From IMG/VR virus record IMGVR_UViG_3300027847_000667, positions 1-46,095 of that record: DNA of 46,095 nucleotides; one strand, 5' to 3'. Of the stretch, positions 8,398 through 26,423 are shown piece by piece. The translations under genes and the position numbers were made by a program. Origin of the DNA: a virus. The first letter of the stretch is position 1. The number at the start of each line of letters is the position of its first letter. The notes beneath the pieces were generated by a model, which made no database searches, was not told the origin of the DNA, and saw only the letters and a list, made by a program, of their open reading frames with translations.

Positions 8398-8580
8398 TGG
8401 TATCCTTCATTATAATAAGTTGAGGGGTTAACCATAGACCCCCCACGGATGTATTACGGCATCACCCGTTGATGTTCTCTAGGCCAAAAAGAATAAACGG
8501 TTACACTTTTGAGGCCTCTAAATCCGCATCGTTCTCCTTATATGTAATAACTTTATTATATATTATAAAGTTATAATAAA
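8398..8580 (-). promoter_or_regulatory. Structured leader between tmRNA and gp33, with a three-codon mini-ORF
   Basis: No gene longer than a few codons is present. In transcription order I see a perfect 10-bp AT hairpin (ATAACTTTAT/ATAAAGTTAT around 8545-8572), a strong AAGGAG (8534-8539) four bases before ATG CGG ATT TAG (8518-8529), an AGGCC...GGCCT inverted repeat, and a GGGGT...ACCCC hairpin near 8422-8440. The Shine-Dalgarno and immediate stop suggest a leader peptide or decoy start. I cannot match it to a known riboswitch. Confidence 0.4.
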
Positions 8581-8624
8581 ATTATACTCGCCTTAGTGCG
8601 TTAGTATAAAATGAGGGTATTCTG

Positions 8625-8908
8625 TTGCTAGGAACCCCCAAAACCCCGAGCAATTATGCGGCTAGCGCATAATCCTCAATTGCAAAGTTATCGTTTGCGT
8701 TTACTTAATTTGATCATAAGGTGATCACTCCACAGTTCTCCACTTTCCTATACATTGTCAGTCGATCCTGTTTCGCCCCCATCAAAAGCGCACACCCAAC
8801 CCCAATTTTGGGGCAATCCCGAACTGCCGGGATGTGCGTTTGTGGTGGAGGCGCGGGGTACTGCCCCCCGGTCCTGGCCAACTTTCAGTCCGTTTCATCA
8901 AACTGTAC
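8625..8908 (-). ncRNA. ssrA: Circularly permuted (two-piece) tmRNA
   Basis: The acceptor piece comes first, from about 8908 to 8843: T stem CGGGG/CCCCG with loop GGCAGTA, then CGCCTCC and A-CCA. A 62-nt intervening segment (8842-8781) is closed by CGCACA/TGTGCG and holds two inner hairpins (CCCG/CGGG and CCCCAA/TTGGGG). The coding piece starts at 8780 with GGGGGCGAAACAGGATCGAC, the conserved tmRNA 5' end. GGGGGCG pairs with CGCCTCC of the first piece (one G-U) to form the acceptor stem, the hallmark of permuted tmRNA. CAAT/GTTG and AACTG/CAGTT pairings between the pieces fit helix P2. The tag ORF and a TTGCT/AGCAA helix (8653-8625) follow. It would rescue stalled ribosomes with SmpB, which is not in this window. 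Confidence 0.93.
8654..8698 (-). other. tmRNA proteolysis-tag reading frame
   Basis: GCA to TAA encodes ANDNFAIEDYALAA, 14 residues. The ANDNFA opening matches the Caulobacter-type tag (AANDNFAEEFAVAA), and the hydrophobic ALAA end is the ClpXP degron common to bacterial tags. The resume codon is taken as GCA after GTAAAC, by analogy to known tmRNAs. Confidence 0.93.
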
Positions 8909-8911
8909 TTA

Positions 8912-8942
8912 TATTTATACCACACTAAACATTTTTTGTCAA
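8912..8942 (-). promoter_or_regulatory. tmRNA promoter, combined sigma70-type and T4-late-type
   Basis: On the minus strand, TTGACA (8937-8942), 17 bp, TATAAA (8914-8919). The -10 is also a full T4-late box TATAAATA (8912-8919). The predicted start near 8908 coincides with the 5' end of the acceptor piece, which independently supports the tmRNA boundary. This is the only promoter in the window that fits both classes. Confidence 0.8.
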
Positions 8943-9057
8943 GGTGTTTGAACTGGTTTAGACTATTATCTTTTCCATTCATCAACTTCTTTATCATGGC
9001 CGGGACGATGGCCATCTTAGGAACGCCCTCCATTTCATAACTATATAAGATTTTAGA

Positions 9058-19022: not shown

Positions 19023-19169
19023 CTAAATTAAAAATAAAATAATGGAACTAATGAGGGCACCTAAGAAAAATGATTTCACTAAATCAATATTATGCCAAAC
19101 TGCTAAGTTCTTAAAATATTCATCAGATGCTTTATGTCCTGTTTTTAGTGAAAAAAAGTTTTTATTCAT
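19023..19169 (-). CDS. 48-residue C-terminal-anchored membrane protein, last gene of the curli island
   Basis: The ORF starts MNKNFFSLKTGHKASDEYF and ends with a hydrophobic helix (SFFLGALISSIILFLI). Its ATG overlaps the cyclase stop by four bases (ATGA), the coupling used throughout this operon, so I treat it as real. Function unknown. Confidence 0.6.
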   Translation of the reverse strand: MNKNFFSLKTGHKASDEYFKNLAVWHNIDLVKSFFLGALISSIILFLI

Positions 19170-21223
19170 TTTGTCGTCGCCCTATAAATGCCATCCCAAT
19201 CAGTTGGAAGGTCTTCATTTCTTAATGCCTCTATACGTTTCTCCATCATAGCATAATAATCCGCCATAACACCATTAAATTCATTTCTCAAATCATTCAA
19301 CCACCTTAATGCCAAGTCCCAATGTTGTTGTCTATACAAGATTAAGAATTTATCATGTTGTTGTATGCATGTAGGATAATAACTCATTTCTTGATTAAGT
19401 TGTTCGTATCTACCTAATGAGGTAAAAATAGTCACACCTTCAGTCTTACCTTTAACAGCAATCTTATCTAATTCAATAATTGCAAATTCTTCTTCCACTC
19501 CTTTAGCTGTTTCGTCACCAAGAATTATCTTCAGGCCATATTCCTTACTTTGTCCTTCAAGACGAGCAGCAAGATTAACTGCATCACCCAAACAACTATA
19601 ATCAAATCTCTGTTCACTACCCATATTGCCCACGACCACTTCTCCCGTATTTAAACCTATTCCAACATTAATTGGAAGGGAATCTTCTTTCTCCAATACA
19701 ATATTCAATTCTTCTAAATGATATAACATTTGATGAGCTGATTTTAAAGCCATCTGTCTTTGTTGTTCTATATCAAGAGGTGCGTTCCAAAATGCCATTA
19801 TACAATCACCCATGTATTTATCAACAGTTCCACCATTTTTCATAATAATATCTGTCATTGGTGTTAAAAATCTATTAATCAATTTTGTTAGTCCTTGTGG
19901 GTCTGTTTTGAATTGTTCACTAATTGGTGTAAATCCTCTTATGTCACAAAACAATAAAGTCAGTTCTCTAGTATCTCCACCAAGTTTTAACAATTCTGGA
20001 TTCTTCTGCAATTTCTTAACCATTGCTGGTGCAAGATAATGCTCAAACTGTTTCTTGATTTCCATTCGTAATTTGTGTTCTTCCATAAATCTTAAAAATG
20101 TTGCAAGAGCCCATGCGATGAATACAGTGAGTACAGGATAACTCCAATCCACCAGATAATCATGTTTGGTAAAGAGGTATGAACTACCATAGAACAATCC
20201 TATAATAGATGCTGGCATAAGAACTGCACTAAAATACCAAGGCAACAATAACACAATAACCATTAGTGCAAGTGCAAATCCAAACGATACTCCTAGCTCT
20301 GCAACATTTGTCCAATAAGGTCTTGTGATGTTTCTTCCCGTCATCATCGTTGCTAGAGATGCACCAATCAAATCATGTGAATGAATTACACCAACAGGAG
20401 TAGATACAGGATTATCAAGACCTGATGCAGTTATTGATACTATCACGATTTTTTCAGTAAGGTCTGGAAGTTTTTCATGCATTGCATAGGTAGGCGTTTT
20501 CCATTTAAAGTCTAGCCATATATTACCATGTGCGTCCGTATCAATCATTTTGAATTTAGGTATGCGTAATTTCTCTACCCCAGCAATACCTGTCTTCATC
20601 TGATACGAAATATCCCCAGCAGCCATGCGTAGAATTTCCATACTTATAGATGGATATAATTTATCACCTATCGCAATTACCAGAGGCATGCGTCTAACCA
20701 CACCATCCGCCTCAGGTGCAACAATCATCATACCTACAGCATTAGCATTTTCTGCAAGTAAAGGTATTGGCCCGATGGCGCCTGGATATTGATATACCCA
20801 ACCTTTCCATGAGTTACCTATTTCTGAAACACCTCTTATAACACCGCTGTTATCTGCCTCATTGATAGGCATCTGTCCTATAATAGTTGGTGTTTGTTTA
20901 AGTGTTCTTGCTAACACTTCATCCTGCCCAAACCTATCTTCATCAGCAAATAAAATAGGAAGAACAACTAACGCAGCTCCTGCCTGATATAGTTTAATAA
21001 TTTCATTGGATAAAGAATTTCTATCCCAAGGCCATTGACCCCTTTTCTTGAGAGTTTCATTATTGATTTCTACTGTAACAAGATTGGATAGACTTTGTTC
21101 AATTTGATTTCTTTGATGCTGGTCTAGTGCTTTCATACGCACCATATCTAGAAACCAAGGATCAGTGAAACGTACTCCACATAAAACCAAAATCACAACT
21201 AATGATATAATCCATTTTTTCAT
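19166..21223 (-). CDS. CHASE2-domain class III adenylate cyclase
   Basis: 685 residues from the ATG at 21223, which overlaps the curlin-fusion stop by 4 nt. The order is an N-terminal TM helix (3-18), an extracytoplasmic CHASE2 sensor domain (about 20-300), three TM helices (about 310-380), and a class III cyclase domain (about 415-600). Catalytic features are intact: metal-binding FCDIRGFT (Asp427) and VDKYMGD (Asp473), adenine-selecting Lys469 with Asp547 in GDAVNLAAR, and Asn550/Arg554. K/D specificity predicts ATP as substrate. A C-terminal extension of about 70 residues follows. In bacteria, CHASE2 cyclases often sit beside FecR-domain genes, as here. Finding one in a phage is unusual. 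Confidence 0.92.
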   Translation of the reverse strand: MKKWIISLVVILVLCGVRFTDPWFLDMVRMKALDQHQRNQIEQSLSNLVTVEINNETLKKRGQWPWDRNSLSNEIIKLYQAGAALVVLPILFADEDRFGQDEVLARTLKQTPTIIGQMPINEADNSGVIRGVSEIGNSWKGWVYQYPGAIGPIPLLAENANAVGMMIVAPEADGVVRRMPLVIAIGDKLYPSISMEILRMAAGDISYQMKTGIAGVEKLRIPKFKMIDTDAHGNIWLDFKWKTPTYAMHEKLPDLTEKIVIVSITASGLDNPVSTPVGVIHSHDLIGASLATMMTGRNITRPYWTNVAELGVSFGFALALMVIVLLLPWYFSAVLMPASIIGLFYGSSYLFTKHDYLVDWSYPVLTVFIAWALATFLRFMEEHKLRMEIKKQFEHYLAPAMVKKLQKNPELLKLGGDTRELTLLFCDIRGFTPISEQFKTDPQGLTKLINRFLTPMTDIIMKNGGTVDKYMGDCIMAFWNAPLDIEQQRQMALKSAHQMLYHLEELNIVLEKEDSLPINVGIGLNTGEVVVGNMGSEQRFDYSCLGDAVNLAARLEGQSKEYGLKIILGDETAKGVEEEFAIIELDKIAVKGKTEGVTIFTSLGRYEQLNQEMSYYPTCIQQHDKFLILYRQQHWDLALRWLNDLRNEFNGVMADYYAMMEKRIEALRNEDLPTDWDGIYRATTK

Positions 21224-22695
21224 TGTGTACCCTGCGTTGTTGATATTGTACATCCTAAAGCATTACTACAAGTACTATCTAAAGTATAATTTTGTGAAGT
21301 ATTTCCCTGTTGTATTAAATCAAAATCTGTACTATACCCAGCTAAATTTATTCTTGCAGCATGATTGCCATTACCTCTTTGTGTAATTGTTACATCATGA
21401 TTTGCATCTAAAGTAACATCAAGATAATGTGTTCCTACATCTTCCTGTATAAATGTTCCTGTATTACTATTACCATTTACATCAAAAAACATTGTCTTTC
21501 CATTATTATCTTTTTGAGTTATAGTTAAGTTATTACTGTTACCATCAACATCTAAACTAAAAAAATGTTTTGCCAAAGTGCCACCATCATATTGAATAAG
21601 ACTAACCACATTTGATGTTCCTGTAATATCTATAATCGCTCTATGTTCACCTCTGTCGTTTGCATGATCGCCTTGATTGACAGTTACGTTTGTACTGTTA
21701 CCATTTATAGCTAGACCCAAGCCATTATTATCGCTGTTACCTGTTGTTGTTACATTGCCTTGTTTAATTGTAAGTGTGACATCATCTCCTGTAACTACAG
21801 CATTACCATTCCAATCAATATCACCAATAAAATTACCATCTCCCTTTTGTTGTATACTTGCTGTAAAATTATCACCGCTCTGTGTAATAAATACACCTTG
21901 CGCCAGAGTTGCATTTTGAGCAGTTGACTTTGTTGTTGATTGTGCTGATGTTATTGAAACAGCAATATTATATGTACTTGCTAACATTGTACGCATAGCA
22001 TTCATCCAGTTCTTATTGTTATTAGTATAGTAAGTACTATGTGAGTTGAAGTTTATATCTGTTATTACAACAACTTTACCTGAGTATGAACTACTTAAAT
22101 CATCACCATACCATACAGCACCTACAATTTTACCATTACCATCTTTTGCGAACCATGTACCATTACCAATAGAAGTGAATGAACCACCCGACGAAAATGT
22201 AACTGTACCACTAAAACTTGACAGCCATGACTCGTTTGAATTATGTTGAGTTATGCTATTACTCGAATATCCAGTTGATGTACTGCTGCTATATGTAATT
22301 GTACCACCACCTACCTCATCCTCAATGAAATCTGCTACACTTTGGTTTCTAGGATTACAACAGCCAGGATTTTCAGCCTGAAGATATAATGTACCACCTC
22401 TTGCAAGTAATGCTTTGTAGGCAGTTATTTGTGCTGATGATAAATTTTGATCTCCATTTGGCCAACCGTGTCTTACATCATATATTTGTTCATAAGATGT
22501 AGTATTAGATGGAAAGCTAGAACTTGTTATGTCAACAGAGGTTACAGTATGGCCTGCATCTTCTAGTCTATTCTTCCATTTAATATGTGAGTTTTCATAG
22601 CCCTGATGTATAATTAATACATCTTCAGCATATGCAACACTACTGATTACACTACTGAAGCTGAGTAATAGTAATATTATTAACCACTTCATCAT
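21220..22695 (-). CDS. Secreted ThuA/GATase-like domain fused to curlin repeats
   Basis: 491 residues. A signal peptide (1-23, ending AYA) precedes a Rossmann-like domain (about 25-260): EDVLIIHQGYENSHIKWKNR, YDVRHGWPNG, ARGGTLYLQAENPGCC, KVVVITDINFNS. This resembles ThuA/DUF4350 glutamine-amidotransferase-like folds. From about 275 on there are curlin-type repeats: GVFITQSGDNFTASIQQKGDGN, TLTIKQGN, NVTVNQGD, NLTITQKDNN, VTITQRGNGN, FDLIQQGN. The Gln-x-Gly-x-x-Asn spacing is that of CsgA/CsgB. A second ATG follows at 22692. Its 5' end overlaps FecR by 44 nt. It is probably exported through CsgG and built into or onto an amyloid fibre. Confidence 0.8.
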   Translation of the reverse strand: MMKWLIILLLLSFSSVISSVAYAEDVLIIHQGYENSHIKWKNRLEDAGHTVTSVDITSSSFPSNTTSYEQIYDVRHGWPNGDQNLSSAQITAYKALLARGGTLYLQAENPGCCNPRNQSVADFIEDEVGGGTITYSSSTSTGYSSNSITQHNSNESWLSSFSGTVTFSSGGSFTSIGNGTWFAKDGNGKIVGAVWYGDDLSSSYSGKVVVITDINFNSHSTYYTNNNKNWMNAMRTMLASTYNIAVSITSAQSTTKSTAQNATLAQGVFITQSGDNFTASIQQKGDGNFIGDIDWNGNAVVTGDDVTLTIKQGNVTTTGNSDNNGLGLAINGNSTNVTVNQGDHANDRGEHRAIIDITGTSNVVSLIQYDGGTLAKHFFSLDVDGNSNNLTITQKDNNGKTMFFDVNGNSNTGTFIQEDVGTHYLDVTLDANHDVTITQRGNGNHAARINLAGYSTDFDLIQQGNTSQNYTLDSTCSNALGCTISTTQGTQ

Positions 22696-23779
22696 TTGTA
22701 GTTATCTCCGGTACTTCTATAGCACCTTGTTTAATATTTATTGAATATCCATTATCATTATTCAAAACAAGATATATATTGTTACCATTAACCTCTCTAA
22801 TTATTCTTGTCTCATTTCCATCAATAACTGTAGTAACAAGTGTCTCTGGATTTAAACCAGACGTTCTTCCATCTATGTGTTCACCCCCTGCACCCGCACC
22901 TTTTTTTACTATTCTCAGTTTTCTTTCATATTTTCTGTTTAACTGTGTCAAGATATTCAATAATAAATCTATATCTAAAGGATTAATATCCAACAATCCA
23001 AATTCTAACTCATCTTTTTCTAATTCATTTTCATCTAGTTCTATATATGCTAACAAATCAACGTCAAGTAAATTAGTAGAGGTTGATGATTTTTTTATAA
23101 GTTCAATAATTTTCTCTTTTGGCGGTCTAATAATAAGCATATTATTAATTTGATCCAAAGTCAGATCAAGTATAACTGGCTTGGATGGATTACTTTCTGC
23201 CATGCCAACTGTTGTTGCTTCAAATGCTTGAGTCATAATTACCATCCCTGCTGCCGTTTCTACTGAAATCTCACCAACTGTTCCATCAGCATTCGGTAGT
23301 AAAATAATAAGAGATTTTCCTATCTCATCAACTGTCATACTAAATGCTGTACCCCGAACACCTATTCTAGCAGTCGGAGTACGAATCTCAACATTTTGTT
23401 GATTGAGTCTTGCTATGTTACCACTTGCATATCGAACTGTACCAAGAACAATTTTCATCACCAACTTAGACCCTGTTTGAGAATTAGGATCATATACAAA
23501 CTCATCAATAACAAGAGAACTTTGTGGACTAATTGCTACATTGGTATCATCTATAAATGTGATACCAATGTTTCCTTTACCTGTACGAACATTATCCTTG
23601 AAAAATATATCTGAGTTTTCTTGCAAACTCAAACTTTCATCTTCTCTCTCTACAGATGCATGTCCTTCATAAAGTACTACATTACCAATAATGTTGTTAC
23701 CATAACTCAACGAAGGTAACATAAGAAAGATTAGAATACTAATCGTCAGAAGTAATCGTAACACTGTGACCAGCCCCAT
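22652..23779 (-). CDS. FecR-domain secreted protein
   Basis: 375 residues from the ATG at 23779. A hydrophobic signal segment (about 5-25) is followed by the FecR domain with VLYEGHASVERED, RTGKGNIGITFIDDTNVAISPQSSLVIDEFVY, and VRYASGNIA...VEIRTPTARIGVRGTAFSM. FecR domains are carbohydrate/sensor modules, often paired with CHASE2 cyclases. The C-terminus has an acidic Leu/Asp-rich section and ends with NIYLVLNNDNGYSINIKQGA, which looks like one curlin-type strand. It overlaps the upstream curlin gene by 41 nt and the downstream fusion by 44 nt. Confidence 0.8.
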   Translation of the reverse strand: MGLVTVLRLLLTISILIFLMLPSLSYGNNIIGNVVLYEGHASVEREDESLSLQENSDIFFKDNVRTGKGNIGITFIDDTNVAISPQSSLVIDEFVYDPNSQTGSKLVMKIVLGTVRYASGNIARLNQQNVEIRTPTARIGVRGTAFSMTVDEIGKSLIILLPNADGTVGEISVETAAGMVIMTQAFEATTVGMAESNPSKPVILDLTLDQINNMLIIRPPKEKIIELIKKSSTSTNLLDVDLLAYIELDENELEKDELEFGLLDINPLDIDLLLNILTQLNRKYERKLRIVKKGAGAGGEHIDGRTSGLNPETLVTTVIDGNETRIIREVNGNNIYLVLNNDNGYSINIKQGAIEVPEITTNDEVVNNITITQLQ

Positions 23780-24437
23780 TAGTGGACAACACAACGTCTG
23801 AAGCATTATTTCCAGTTTGTGTTATCACAAAAGTTCCAGAAGCACCAATATGTGTCAATGTCGTATTATGGTGTGCAGCGCCACTATGAGTCGTAGTAAT
23901 TGTATTACTATCTCCTGTTACTGTAATGGCTGTATTTTTATCAGTATTTGTAGATGCTGAACTATTCTCATTAATGATAAGAGTGTTACTATCTGCACCA
24001 CTATTAAATACTACATCAATATTTACATCTGAAACTGAGGCAGAAGTACCTACATTATATGTGGTATTATTGCTGTTACCTATCGTGGCTTCATCAATAT
24101 GAACATCATCAGCAGCAGCATTAGTACCAACAGTAATCGTTGCTTCGTTACTATTACCAGTTTGACTAATAGCTAAGTCTTCTACATTAGTTGCACCAGC
24201 ACCTATAAATGAACCATCAATTACGTTTGTTGCACCAATTTGATCAATATCAAATGTTTGATTGGCTCCTGTTGCTGTAAATACAGTAGTAGAATTACCC
24301 ATCTGATTTCCGTTACCGTCCATATTAATATTGGCAGTAAAAGTTGCTCCTGATTGAGTAATAAAAACATCGTTATCTGCGTGACTTATACCAATCATAA
24401 AAAATGACATAATAACTGCGAGTATAATTTTCTTCAT
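23739..24437 (-). CDS. Curlin-repeat (CsgA/CsgB-like) protein
   Basis: 232 residues from the ATG at 24437, with GGGAAGGAG correctly spaced. A signal peptide (about 1-20, ending SHA) is followed by a low-complexity Asn/Thr/Gly/Ser protein with curlin-type strands: DVFITQSGATFTANI, TFDIDQIGATN, LAISQTGNSNEA, FVITQTGNNASD. The first strand is nearly the same as in the fusion protein (GVFITQSGDNFTASI). It is expected to cross the outer membrane via CsgG and form a cross-beta fibre. It is longer and less regular than E. coli CsgA (151 residues). It follows csgG immediately. Confidence 0.8.
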   Translation of the reverse strand: MKKIILAVIMSFFMIGISHADNDVFITQSGATFTANINMDGNGNQMGNSTTVFTATGANQTFDIDQIGATNVIDGSFIGAGATNVEDLAISQTGNSNEATITVGTNAAADDVHIDEATIGNSNNTTYNVGTSASVSDVNIDVVFNSGADSNTLIINENSSASTNTDKNTAITVTGDSNTITTTHSGAAHHNTTLTHIGASGTFVITQTGNNASDVVLSTNGAGHSVTITSDD

Positions 24438-24438
24438 T

Positions 24439-25338
24439 TTATTCTCCTTCCCTATAAGTATAATTTTCATGAATTTCATTATCATTAAAATTTATATTAT
24501 TCTCATCATTCTCATTATTATCATGATATTCTTCACTAACTATTACCACTGGAGTATCTGGTTCACTAAATTCCCATAAGCCCTTTTCAGCTCCCTTAAT
24601 TATCAACTCTGTCACAACTTTTTCTATTGCTTTTCTAACTGCATATGTAACAGATTCATTTTCTGTATATCCAACTTCTGTCTCCAATAGTTTTGTTCCC
24701 ATGTCTAAAAATTTAAACACATTGGCAGAAACTCTTGTGCTCAATATAGTTTTCTCAGAACTAATGGCCATTAGTATTTCACCTGTACCAACAGATACTA
24801 ATCTTATACCAACCGTCACCGTATCCTTACGATACTCTACTGATGATCCTATACCTAATAATCTTGCTCCAAACCCACCTGTAGTTGTATTTGCATCATA
24901 TCCAACAATACCCCCCTCAATTAACACACCAGCAAACAATAATGGTGTTATTTGATCTTTATCCCCAAAGCTTTCTCTTGTCTGTCGTATAATCTGTCGT
25001 TCTTTTAATAAATTATCAAGAGCAACTCTTTCAACAACTTGAAACCATTCTCCATTTCCTGCTCGTTTCAATGCTTGTATCAACCATATATGTGAACCTT
25101 GCGTAACAGCAGTACTAATCTGTGCTACTGATTGGTTTGGTTTCCTTTGACCAGTTACATCTGTAAAGGAATAAACCGCAATCGGAACTTTCATTTTGGG
25201 TGGTGGGAAAGCATCTAATTGATGTATCAGAGAGTTAGTAACTACTAAAGGTGCGTCAATCTTTTGGACTGATTGACACCCGACCAGTATACTAAAACTG
25301 AAAATCGTTAAGAGGAACCGTAATCGTTGATTTTCCAT
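24439..25338 (-). CDS. csgG: CsgG-like curli secretion channel lipoprotein
   Basis: 299 residues. A lipoprotein signal has lipobox ILVG-C21. The CsgG core is present: PPKMKVPIAVYSFTDVTGQRKP, VTQGSHIWLIQAL, FQVVERVALDNLLKERQIIRQTRE, LLFAGVLIEGGIVGYDANTTTGG, YRKDTVTVGIRLVSVGTGEIL and VSANVFKFLDMGTKLLETEVGYT. CsgG forms the nonameric outer-membrane pore of type VIII secretion. A C-terminal tail of about 30 residues, rich in Asn, Asp and Glu, is extra relative to E. coli CsgG (277). The gene overlaps csgF. The ATG at 25338 is preferred over one at 25347. Confidence 0.93.
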   Translation of the reverse strand: MENQRLRFLLTIFSFSILVGCQSVQKIDAPLVVTNSLIHQLDAFPPPKMKVPIAVYSFTDVTGQRKPNQSVAQISTAVTQGSHIWLIQALKRAGNGEWFQVVERVALDNLLKERQIIRQTRESFGDKDQITPLLFAGVLIEGGIVGYDANTTTGGFGARLLGIGSSVEYRKDTVTVGIRLVSVGTGEILMAISSEKTILSTRVSANVFKFLDMGTKLLETEVGYTENESVTYAVRKAIEKVVTELIIKGAEKGLWEFSEPDTPVVIVSEEYHDNNENDENNINFNDNEIHENYTYREGE

Positions 25339-25816
25339 CTGCACCATCTATTGTTAAAGTTACTACGTCTGTTGTGGTGTTCTTTTCATAACTAATTGTT
25401 GTACCTTCAAATGTTACTGTACCACTACAGCTTCCTACTCCAACCGTATCTCCTTGGCCAACTTTATCTGTCGGAGGTACAACTACTCCAAGTCCATCGT
25501 AAGTTGTTCCACATGATTCACCAAATAAACTATCCGTTAAATTTTTTGATAGCTGAGCATAAATTCTTGATTCTATATTCTTAATAAACTTAGCATAATT
25601 TGTATTGCCCGCATCTCTGATTTCTTGTCGCAGCGCACCCGCTTCCTTTTCTTTTATTGCGGCCTTGCGAGAGAACTCTTGGTTCTCAATCGTTAACACA
25701 TGAGCGCTAAATCCAATACCATTAAATACTGGAGATTTAAAATTAAACACCATACCCTCGGCAAACGCATTAGGTGCTATGATACAAAAAAATAATATGT
25801 AAAATAAATATTTCAT
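25292..25816 (-). CDS. csgF: CsgF-like curli assembly factor
   Basis: 174 residues from the ATG at 25816, which begins a clear signal peptide (MKYLFYILFFCIIAPNAFA). The mature start EGMVFNFKSPVFNGIGFSAH matches the CsgF N-terminus ([24 protein letters not shown]), the segment that plugs the CsgG pore. The helix FIKNIESRIYAQLSKNLTDSLFG follows (CsgF: FTQAIQSQILGGLLSNI), then a C-terminal beta region (TVTFEGTTISYEKNT...TITVPLNDF). The middle has a Gly/Val-rich insert with a Cys pair (GESCGTTYDG...GVGSCSG). Confidence 0.85.
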   Translation of the reverse strand: MKYLFYILFFCIIAPNAFAEGMVFNFKSPVFNGIGFSAHVLTIENQEFSRKAAIKEKEAGALRQEIRDAGNTNYAKFIKNIESRIYAQLSKNLTDSLFGESCGTTYDGLGVVVPPTDKVGQGDTVGVGSCSGTVTFEGTTISYEKNTTTDVVTLTIDGADGKSTITVPLNDFQF

Positions 25817-25820
25817 TTTT

Positions 25821-26102
25821 TTAGTTTTGCTTTTTCCTTTTTTTATTTGCTGCTTCAAAAGGGTCATATTGTTGATTTTGTATTTCTATAATAGTATGAA
25901 TTTTTTGATCCAATCTAATCATATCATTGTCAAGCATTCTCACTCTGTCAATCAAACCCACTAATGTACCACTTGCTTTACTCAAACTTGGTAAAATATT
26001 ATGCGTAACAAATTTCCAAATATAAAATATAAAATATCCCATCCCTACTGCTACAACAATTGGCACTCCATACTGATTAACAAGTTCTACAATACTATCC
26101 AT
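25821..26102 (-). CDS. Small membrane protein with coiled coil (paralogue of the next gene)
   Basis: 93 residues: one N-terminal TM helix (about 10-33), then an amphipathic region (VGLIDRVRMLDNDMIRLDQKIHTIIEIQNQ) and a basic tail KKRKKQN. The layout and the D-R-V...N-D/E-x-I-R-L-D pattern are shared with the gene at 26105-26383, suggesting duplication. A holin-like or envelope scaffolding role is possible. It sits directly before csgF. Confidence 0.6.
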   Translation of the reverse strand: MDSIVELVNQYGVPIVVAVGMGYFIFYIWKFVTHNILPSLSKASGTLVGLIDRVRMLDNDMIRLDQKIHTIIEIQNQQYDPFEAANKKRKKQN

Positions 26103-26104
26103 AA

Positions 26105-26383
26105 CTAATCTTTCCTAGCATCTTCTTTACCATCAGCAGCAGACATTCTACGAGTATCGGGTTTTACTCCTAATGCATGACATATAAGAGCATCTAACCT
26201 CACTATTTCATTATTAATAGTCTTCACACGATTGTCTAACGACGATATCATTCCATTCAGACCCTCAGCCCTACTTACAACCGAATTCAAAATATATTTC
26301 AAAAGCAAAATAATAAAAAACCCGCCGCCGAATACAGCTGCGATGGAAAAGCCTAGGTCAGCAATTAATTTAAATGCTTCCAT
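26105..26383 (-). CDS. Small membrane protein with coiled coil, first gene of the curli island
   Basis: 92 residues from the ATG at 26383, chosen because GGAG is spaced 6 nt before it (the ATG at 26404 has nothing). TM helix about 10-32 (FSIAAVFGGGFFIILLLKYIL), then SSLDNRVKTINNEIVRLDALICHAL and a charged tail. It is preceded by a TATAAATA late box and a leader hairpin. Confidence 0.6.
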   Translation of the reverse strand: MEAFKLIADLGFSIAAVFGGGFFIILLLKYILNSVVSRAEGLNGMISSLDNRVKTINNEIVRLDALICHALGVKPDTRRMSAADGKEDARKD

Positions 26384-26399
26384 CAGGCGCTCCAGTTTT

Positions 26400-26423
26400 A
26401 TCATGATTACATATAATCATGAT
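26400..26423 (-). promoter_or_regulatory. Inverted repeat just downstream of the curli-island promoter
   Basis: A perfect 10-bp inverted repeat, ATCATGATTA and its complement, around a 4-base loop. It lies 10 bases past the late box and immediately before the GGAG of the first gene. It would form a hairpin near the 5' end of the mRNA or an operator for a dimeric repressor. Confidence 0.6.

Follow-up and report, generated by a model that had tools for sequence, protein, structure and literature searches.

A CHASE2 class III cyclase gene within the curli module of a marine T4-like phage and its counterparts on bacterial chromosomes

Results

The phage curli module and its genomic context

The analysed DNA, referred to as the window, is the whole 46,095-base stretch corresponding to positions 1-46,095 of the IMG/VR record IMGVR_UViG_3300027847_000667. 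The window was found to encode a CHASE2 class III cyclase. Its gene closes a run of six genes (csgF, csgG, curlin-like, FecR, curlin-like, cyclase) that overlap or abut one another. The following features were assigned:

8563-8946, minus strand: permuted tmRNA of alphaproteobacterial type, tag ANDNFAIEDYALAA
14171-15205, minus strand: phage-encoded GMP reductase (NCBIfam NF003470, 5.5e-151)
19166-21223, minus strand: CHASE2 class III cyclase, predicted adenylate type, 685 aa (Pfam PF05226 and PF00211)
19169-19408, minus strand: C-terminal extension of the cyclase, residues 606-685, missing in most HTVC008M-type cyclases
19430-19969, minus strand: class III catalytic domain with D427, K469, D473, S543, N550 and R554
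20045-20314, minus strand: three transmembrane (TM) helices and signalling helix, residues 304-393 (model)
20267-21196, minus strand: CHASE2 region, comprising the N-terminal TM helix, the periplasmic domain and the first residues of TM2 (Pfam match, model)
21220-22695, minus strand: second curlin-like secreted protein (CUR2), with a repeat-like C-terminal half and an unrelated N-terminal domain
22652-23806, minus strand: secreted FecR-domain protein (PF04773, 5.7e-08)
23739-24437, minus strand: first curlin-like secreted protein (CUR1)
24439-25347, minus strand: CsgG, curli outer-membrane pore lipoprotein (PF03783, 6.4e-57; NCBIfam CsgG)
25292-25867, minus strand: CsgF (PF10614, 7e-08)
25821-26102, minus strand: short coiled-coil protein with one TM helix, encoded before csgF
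26105-26404, minus strand: paralogue of the preceding protein, likewise short, coiled-coil and with one TM helix
32509-33232, minus strand: spanin-like pair, an inner-membrane protein overlapping a lipoprotein

The window contains a T4-like gene set (gp19-like tail tube, T4 baseplate protein, gp59 and gp61-type primase), together with genes for PhoH, ThyX and ribonucleotide reductase, and represents a marine, uncultivated T4-like phage. Melnitz was the best named relative for both the primase and the flap endonuclease, with Mosig and HTVC008M close behind in the case of the primase. The tmRNA resembles that of Melnitz (tag ANDNYVPVDYALAA) in form. The assignment of a host via the tmRNA was attempted and dropped, as the tag differs from those of the five sampled SAR11-family genomes and the best matches were not SAR11 genomes. 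The CsgG protein of another IMG/VR contig (3300009786_002432; L247, 3365-4216) is identical to that of the window.

The genes encoding CsgF, CsgG, a curlin-like protein, FecR and the cyclase are adjacent on one strand, and the order csgF-csgG-curlin-FecR-(curlin)-cyclase was kept across phages. Of the CsgG-anchored contigs, 19 extend for at least 6.5 kb downstream, and all 19 contain both FecR and the cyclase; these contigs are near relatives and partly redundant. The curlin-repeat motif count was 5 for CUR1 (shuffled sequences: mean 0.5, maximum 4), whereas the motif count for the C-terminal half of CUR2 was inside the shuffle range; neither had a Pfam match. The CUR1 model was all-beta and had no match among PDB folds. 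The two proteins encoded before csgF (93 and 99 aa) had no kinase domain and no match in Pfam or NCBIfam. The scan for promoters and terminators gave no signal above shuffled sequences.

Architecture and catalytic residues of the cyclase

The reading frame of the cyclase is open to position 21253. The start at 21223 was favoured because its ATG overlaps the stop codon of the upstream curlin-like gene as ATGA and close relatives align from that methionine. The Pfam scores were well over cut-off for both CHASE2 (7.7e-36) and Guanylate_cyc (9.3e-21). The AlphaFold model (m5517241ffb1f; mean pLDDT 86, pTM 0.59) comprises one N-terminal helix (residues 2-20), a periplasmic alpha/beta domain, three helices (residues 304-393) and a cyclase fold matching CyaB, CyaC and Cya2. 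The CHASE2 domain is thus placed behind one TM helix and ahead of three, as in CHASE2 receptors. Pairwise dN/dS values of the cyclase ranged from 0.04 to 0.16, and both the CHASE2 sensor and the cyclase enzyme were constrained among close relatives of the window. The full-length protein matches PHROG 35576 (8.6e-200), and at least 600 IMG/VR stretches match it. Matches from Acinetobacter ‘phages’ were rejected as relatives of the whole protein, since they have only the cyclase domain in common with it. In one contig (L259) the cyclase is split over two ORFs, possibly by a frameshift. In another phage contig (L045, 8356-8811) a Type IV pilin-like protein (GFTLIELMIVVAIIGILAAIA) is encoded immediately behind the cyclase.

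The window protein has the two metal-binding aspartates (Asp427, Asp473), the base-reading pair Lys469/Ser543, the transition-state residues Asn550 and Arg554, and Lys591. Together with the fold, the metal-binding and transition-state residues identify a class III nucleotidyl cyclase. The original prediction of an intact, phage-encoded CHASE2 cyclase with all catalytic residues was confirmed by the Pfam matches, the model, this residue set and the T4-like context. Asp427, Lys469, Asp473, Arg554 and Lys591 were invariant across 77 phage sequences, and Asn550 was present in 73 of them. In the remaining four, Melnitz-type cyclases (L006, L008, L009 and L083, the last being Melnitz itself), the transition-state Asn is replaced by Ser and the base site has Asp; their cyclase domain has moved between CHASE2 types. 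These Melnitz-type enzymes may be weakly active, judging from the Ser substitution.

Lys469 and Ser543 form an ATP-specifying pair, as expected for the adenylate type. Lys469 aligns with the Lys of the adenylyl cyclase CyaB and with the Glu of the guanylyl cyclase Cya2. The change from Glu to Lys at the base-reading site is the known switch to ATP, and the structure 6fht is the Lys form. The fold also matches Cya2, which would be compatible with cGMP as the product; however, Lys469 never varies and Cya2 has Glu there, and we regard cGMP as very improbable. Adenylate rather than guanylate specificity, as originally proposed, and activity of the enzyme are strongly predicted, and the cyclase is very probably catalytically active.

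Exchange of the cyclase domain among phages

The phage proteins were found to be recombinant, with an exchange point just past the TM helices (residues 386-400) at a conserved KKQF hinge. The window protein is 80% identical to that of L006 over CHASE2 and the TM helices and 40% identical over the cyclase domain. The reverse was observed between L006 and Melnitz (36% and 87%, respectively) and between L012 and HTVC008M (35% and 81%). The thresholds applied separate three cyclase types, with 45, 23 and 4 members in all, and a single CHASE2 group of 61 members carries all three (45, 12 and 4). CHASE2 distances correlated with those of FecR (r 0.91-0.92), CUR1 (0.87) and CsgG/CsgF (0.83), but only weakly with those of the cyclase domain (0.37); the CHASE2 and cyclase distances of 36 non-phage bacterial proteins were also weakly correlated (r 0.38). 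Everything 5' of the hinge moves as a block with csgF, csgG and FecR, while the enzyme is replaceable. Co-variation of FecR and CHASE2 was considered as proof of their contact and rejected: CHASE2 tracks CUR1 and CsgG/CsgF almost equally well, so that linkage can explain the correlation.

Counterparts on bacterial chromosomes

The best bacterial relative of the window cyclase (40% identity) was found in a contig of a Caulobacteraceae MAG (L084, GC 57.6%), where the gene order is csgF-csgG-curlin-curlin-FecR-CHASE2 cyclase. The locus is flanked by glycosyltransferases on one side and by an S9-type peptidase and a TonB receptor on the other. A search for CsgF in 398 genomes of the same order gave matches in 42, one of which (L205) carries csgF-csgG-curlin-FecR-CHASE2 cyclase. 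The L205 contig is 705 kb long, and the locus is bordered on each side by TonB receptors. The neighbourhoods of the two loci consist of glycosyltransferase, TonB-receptor and metabolic genes. Neither FecR nor a cyclase was found in the 16 further stretches inspected around CsgF matches. The two bacterial loci share gene order and clade with the window; they differ from it in lying on a bacterial chromosome with a GC content of 52-58% and in lacking the second curlin between FecR and the cyclase. They run counter to the published statement that FecR, the kinase and the cyclase do not occur within bacterial curli operons (PMC9599517). The coupling of the cyclase to FecR and curlins, which had been read from the window alone, thus holds directly upstream of the gene, in the 19 phage contigs and in both bacterial loci.

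In the CHASE2 and CsgG trees, L084 and L205 grouped with phages of the L036/L037/L040 kind (support 96), and the phages together with L084 and L205 were set apart from 36 (CHASE2) or 14 (CsgG) other bacterial sequences (support 99-100). The cyclase-domain tree alone does not place the two loci among the phages. An AU test on whole-protein trees against phage monophyly gave a p value of 1e-8, which we treat with caution; because the protein is recombinant, the domain trees were used instead. Because these two loci branch from within the phages, the module may have been transferred from phage to bacterium in these cases. The module is common to phages and alphaproteobacteria (relatives of Caulobacterales), and it is best read as bacterial in origin and co-opted by phages.

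Search for a cAMP reader

No cNMP-binding protein (PF00027) was found in ten phage records, namely the complete genomes of HTVC008M and Melnitz and eight contigs of 56-204 kb. The domain was also missing in 75 of 79 SAR11-family genomes; the family sampled was that of a genome recognised as SAR11 by its 16S probe sites. Matches in the other four genomes were mostly not CRP-like: an FNR-like regulator carrying cysteines at its N-terminus, two proteins of about 1000 aa in one genome, a protein of about 870 aa and a short protein. A class III cyclase over cut-off was missing in 77 of the 79. The two assemblies with PF00211 over cut-off (L244, L245) were rejected as sources of SAR11 cyclases, since the matches look like phage contigs within the assemblies: in L244 a spanin-like pair, similar to that of the window, follows the cyclase, and in L245 the indication is closeness to phage cyclases only. 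Many of the SAR11-family assemblies are small and perhaps incomplete, and other cAMP-binding folds exist; the absence therefore concerns the standard receptor only. Since no examined phage encodes a recognisable cAMP receptor, the receptor is most likely a host protein. The search for cAMP-binding proteins, which had been suggested as a check on the original prediction, was thus negative, and no reader was found for the claimed tie between the cAMP level of the infected cell and a periplasmic signal. The cAMP level may rise in infected cells, and fibre status may be the signal.

Discussion

A phage curli module that includes the cyclase was already published in 2022, and the window is another phage carrying it. 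Wittmers et al. 2022 (PMC9599517) described the order CsgF-CsgG-CsgA/B-FecR-CsgA/B-AC in podo- and myovirus pelagiphages, proposed an alphaproteobacterial origin, and noted that myovirus modules often have two curlin genes and a cyclase; the csgF/csgG part had been described by Zaragoza-Solas 2020 and Buchholz 2022 (PMC7029224, PMC9004378). The window agrees with this pelagiphage T8SS/curli module in genes and order, the cyclase included. It differs from the podovirus modules, in which the genes upstream of csgF were described as histidine kinases, in having no such kinase, which is not required for myoviruses. A homologue annotated as a cyclase lies in the same position in HTVC008M and in four Melnitz records. 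HTVC008M AGE60353.1 and Melnitz gp104 are full-length homologues within the same module (37-40% identity to the window cyclase); the former lacks the C-terminal extension and the latter has Ser at the transition-state Asn. Beyond the published module, the present analysis adds the CHASE2 architecture, the exchange of the cyclase domain and the bacterial loci with FecR and cyclase.

We modestly favour the interpretation that the phages have co-opted a FecR/CHASE2 relay from bacteria, in which the condition of the periplasm or of the curli governs cAMP synthesis. The protein would be seated in the inner membrane and provide the signalling output of a curli secretion module. Its CHASE2 domain would sense the periplasm. 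The most likely intermediary is the secreted FecR protein encoded alongside it, which would convey how the CsgG/CsgF pore or the curlin substrate is faring. The signal would then cross the TM/hinge helix and switch a dimeric class III cyclase converting ATP to cAMP. This relay would have entered phages together with the fibre genes. We give the complete path from the outer membrane or curli through FecR and CHASE2 to cAMP roughly an even chance; contact between FecR and CHASE2, and the sensing of curli or of the envelope, are inferred. FecR is the immediate upstream gene in seven of 53 other bacterial CHASE2 cyclases. A Burkholderia biofilm operon pairs a LysM-FecR protein with a CHASE2 kinase (PMC5192318); as in the window, FecR stands beside a CHASE2 sensor with a link to biofilm, but the output is a histidine kinase and curli genes are missing from this BiofilmReg operon. 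In Sinorhizobium, CHASE2 cyclases raise cAMP in a response that passes through the outer-membrane protein NsrA (PMC13001267). These enzymes (CyaD1, CyaD2 and CyaK) are comparable to the window protein as class III cyclases that receive their input from the outer membrane, here from the NsrA barrel; Sinorhizobium has the CRP-family receptor Clr, while none was found in the phages examined here. Among the same 53 upstream genes (alignment A3), cyclic-nucleotide-binding domains were observed in seven and domains of ABC transporters or HlyD in eight to nine, perhaps representing cAMP-gated type I secretion.

The Sinorhizobium pathway from CHASE2 through cAMP to Clr could also be taken to mean that phage cAMP acts via a host CRP/Clr-type regulator and reprogrammes transcription, the curli genes being mere neighbours. 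The window tmRNA tag is unlike those of the sampled SAR11-family genomes, and its host may therefore own such a regulator. PF00027 is almost always missing from SAR11, which HTVC008M infects, yet this phage keeps the enzyme, and the gene has a fixed place in the curli module of phages and two bacteria; we consider this explanation unlikely. Another reading is that a phage imposes a second messenger on a host lineage, SAR11, from which class III cyclases and cNMP-binding proteins have both largely disappeared. The cAMP would then have to work through a receptor of an unrecognised class, or extracellularly, the output enzyme being one that phages swap as a module. This reading is likewise unlikely, though conceivable.

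The lack of a cAMP reader in the ten phage records and in 75 of the 79 SAR11-family genomes would also fit a cyclase that is a passenger of little consequence, the module being kept for curli (aggregation, superinfection block or an altered pore); fibres or pores are what the published proposals for the module invoke (PMC7029224, PMC9004378, PMC9599517). Such a passenger appears decidedly unlikely, as its catalytic domain is under strong purifying selection, the catalytic residues survive repeated domain exchange, and the cyclase was present in every one of the CsgG-anchored contigs. In PADLOC the catalytic domain scored against the PycC profiles (2.9e-30), as would be expected if the enzyme interfered with or mimicked nucleotide-based antiphage signalling of the Pycsar type. 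However, these profiles have the class III fold in common with it, and the CHASE2/TM architecture and the Lys/Ser base pair speak against this. The neighbours are curli and T4-like phage genes, with no PycTM or PycTIR among them, and the origin of the protein leads back to curli operons. A Pycsar-like role is accordingly extremely improbable.

That SAR11 mostly lacks a recognisable cAMP reader raises a sharply defined and testable question, and the bacterial counterpart loci offer a system for genetic testing of a FecR-CHASE2-curli relay. Provided that the enzyme is active, relatives of the phages that infect the most abundant bacteria of the ocean import a surface-fibre system along with a signalling enzyme of its own.
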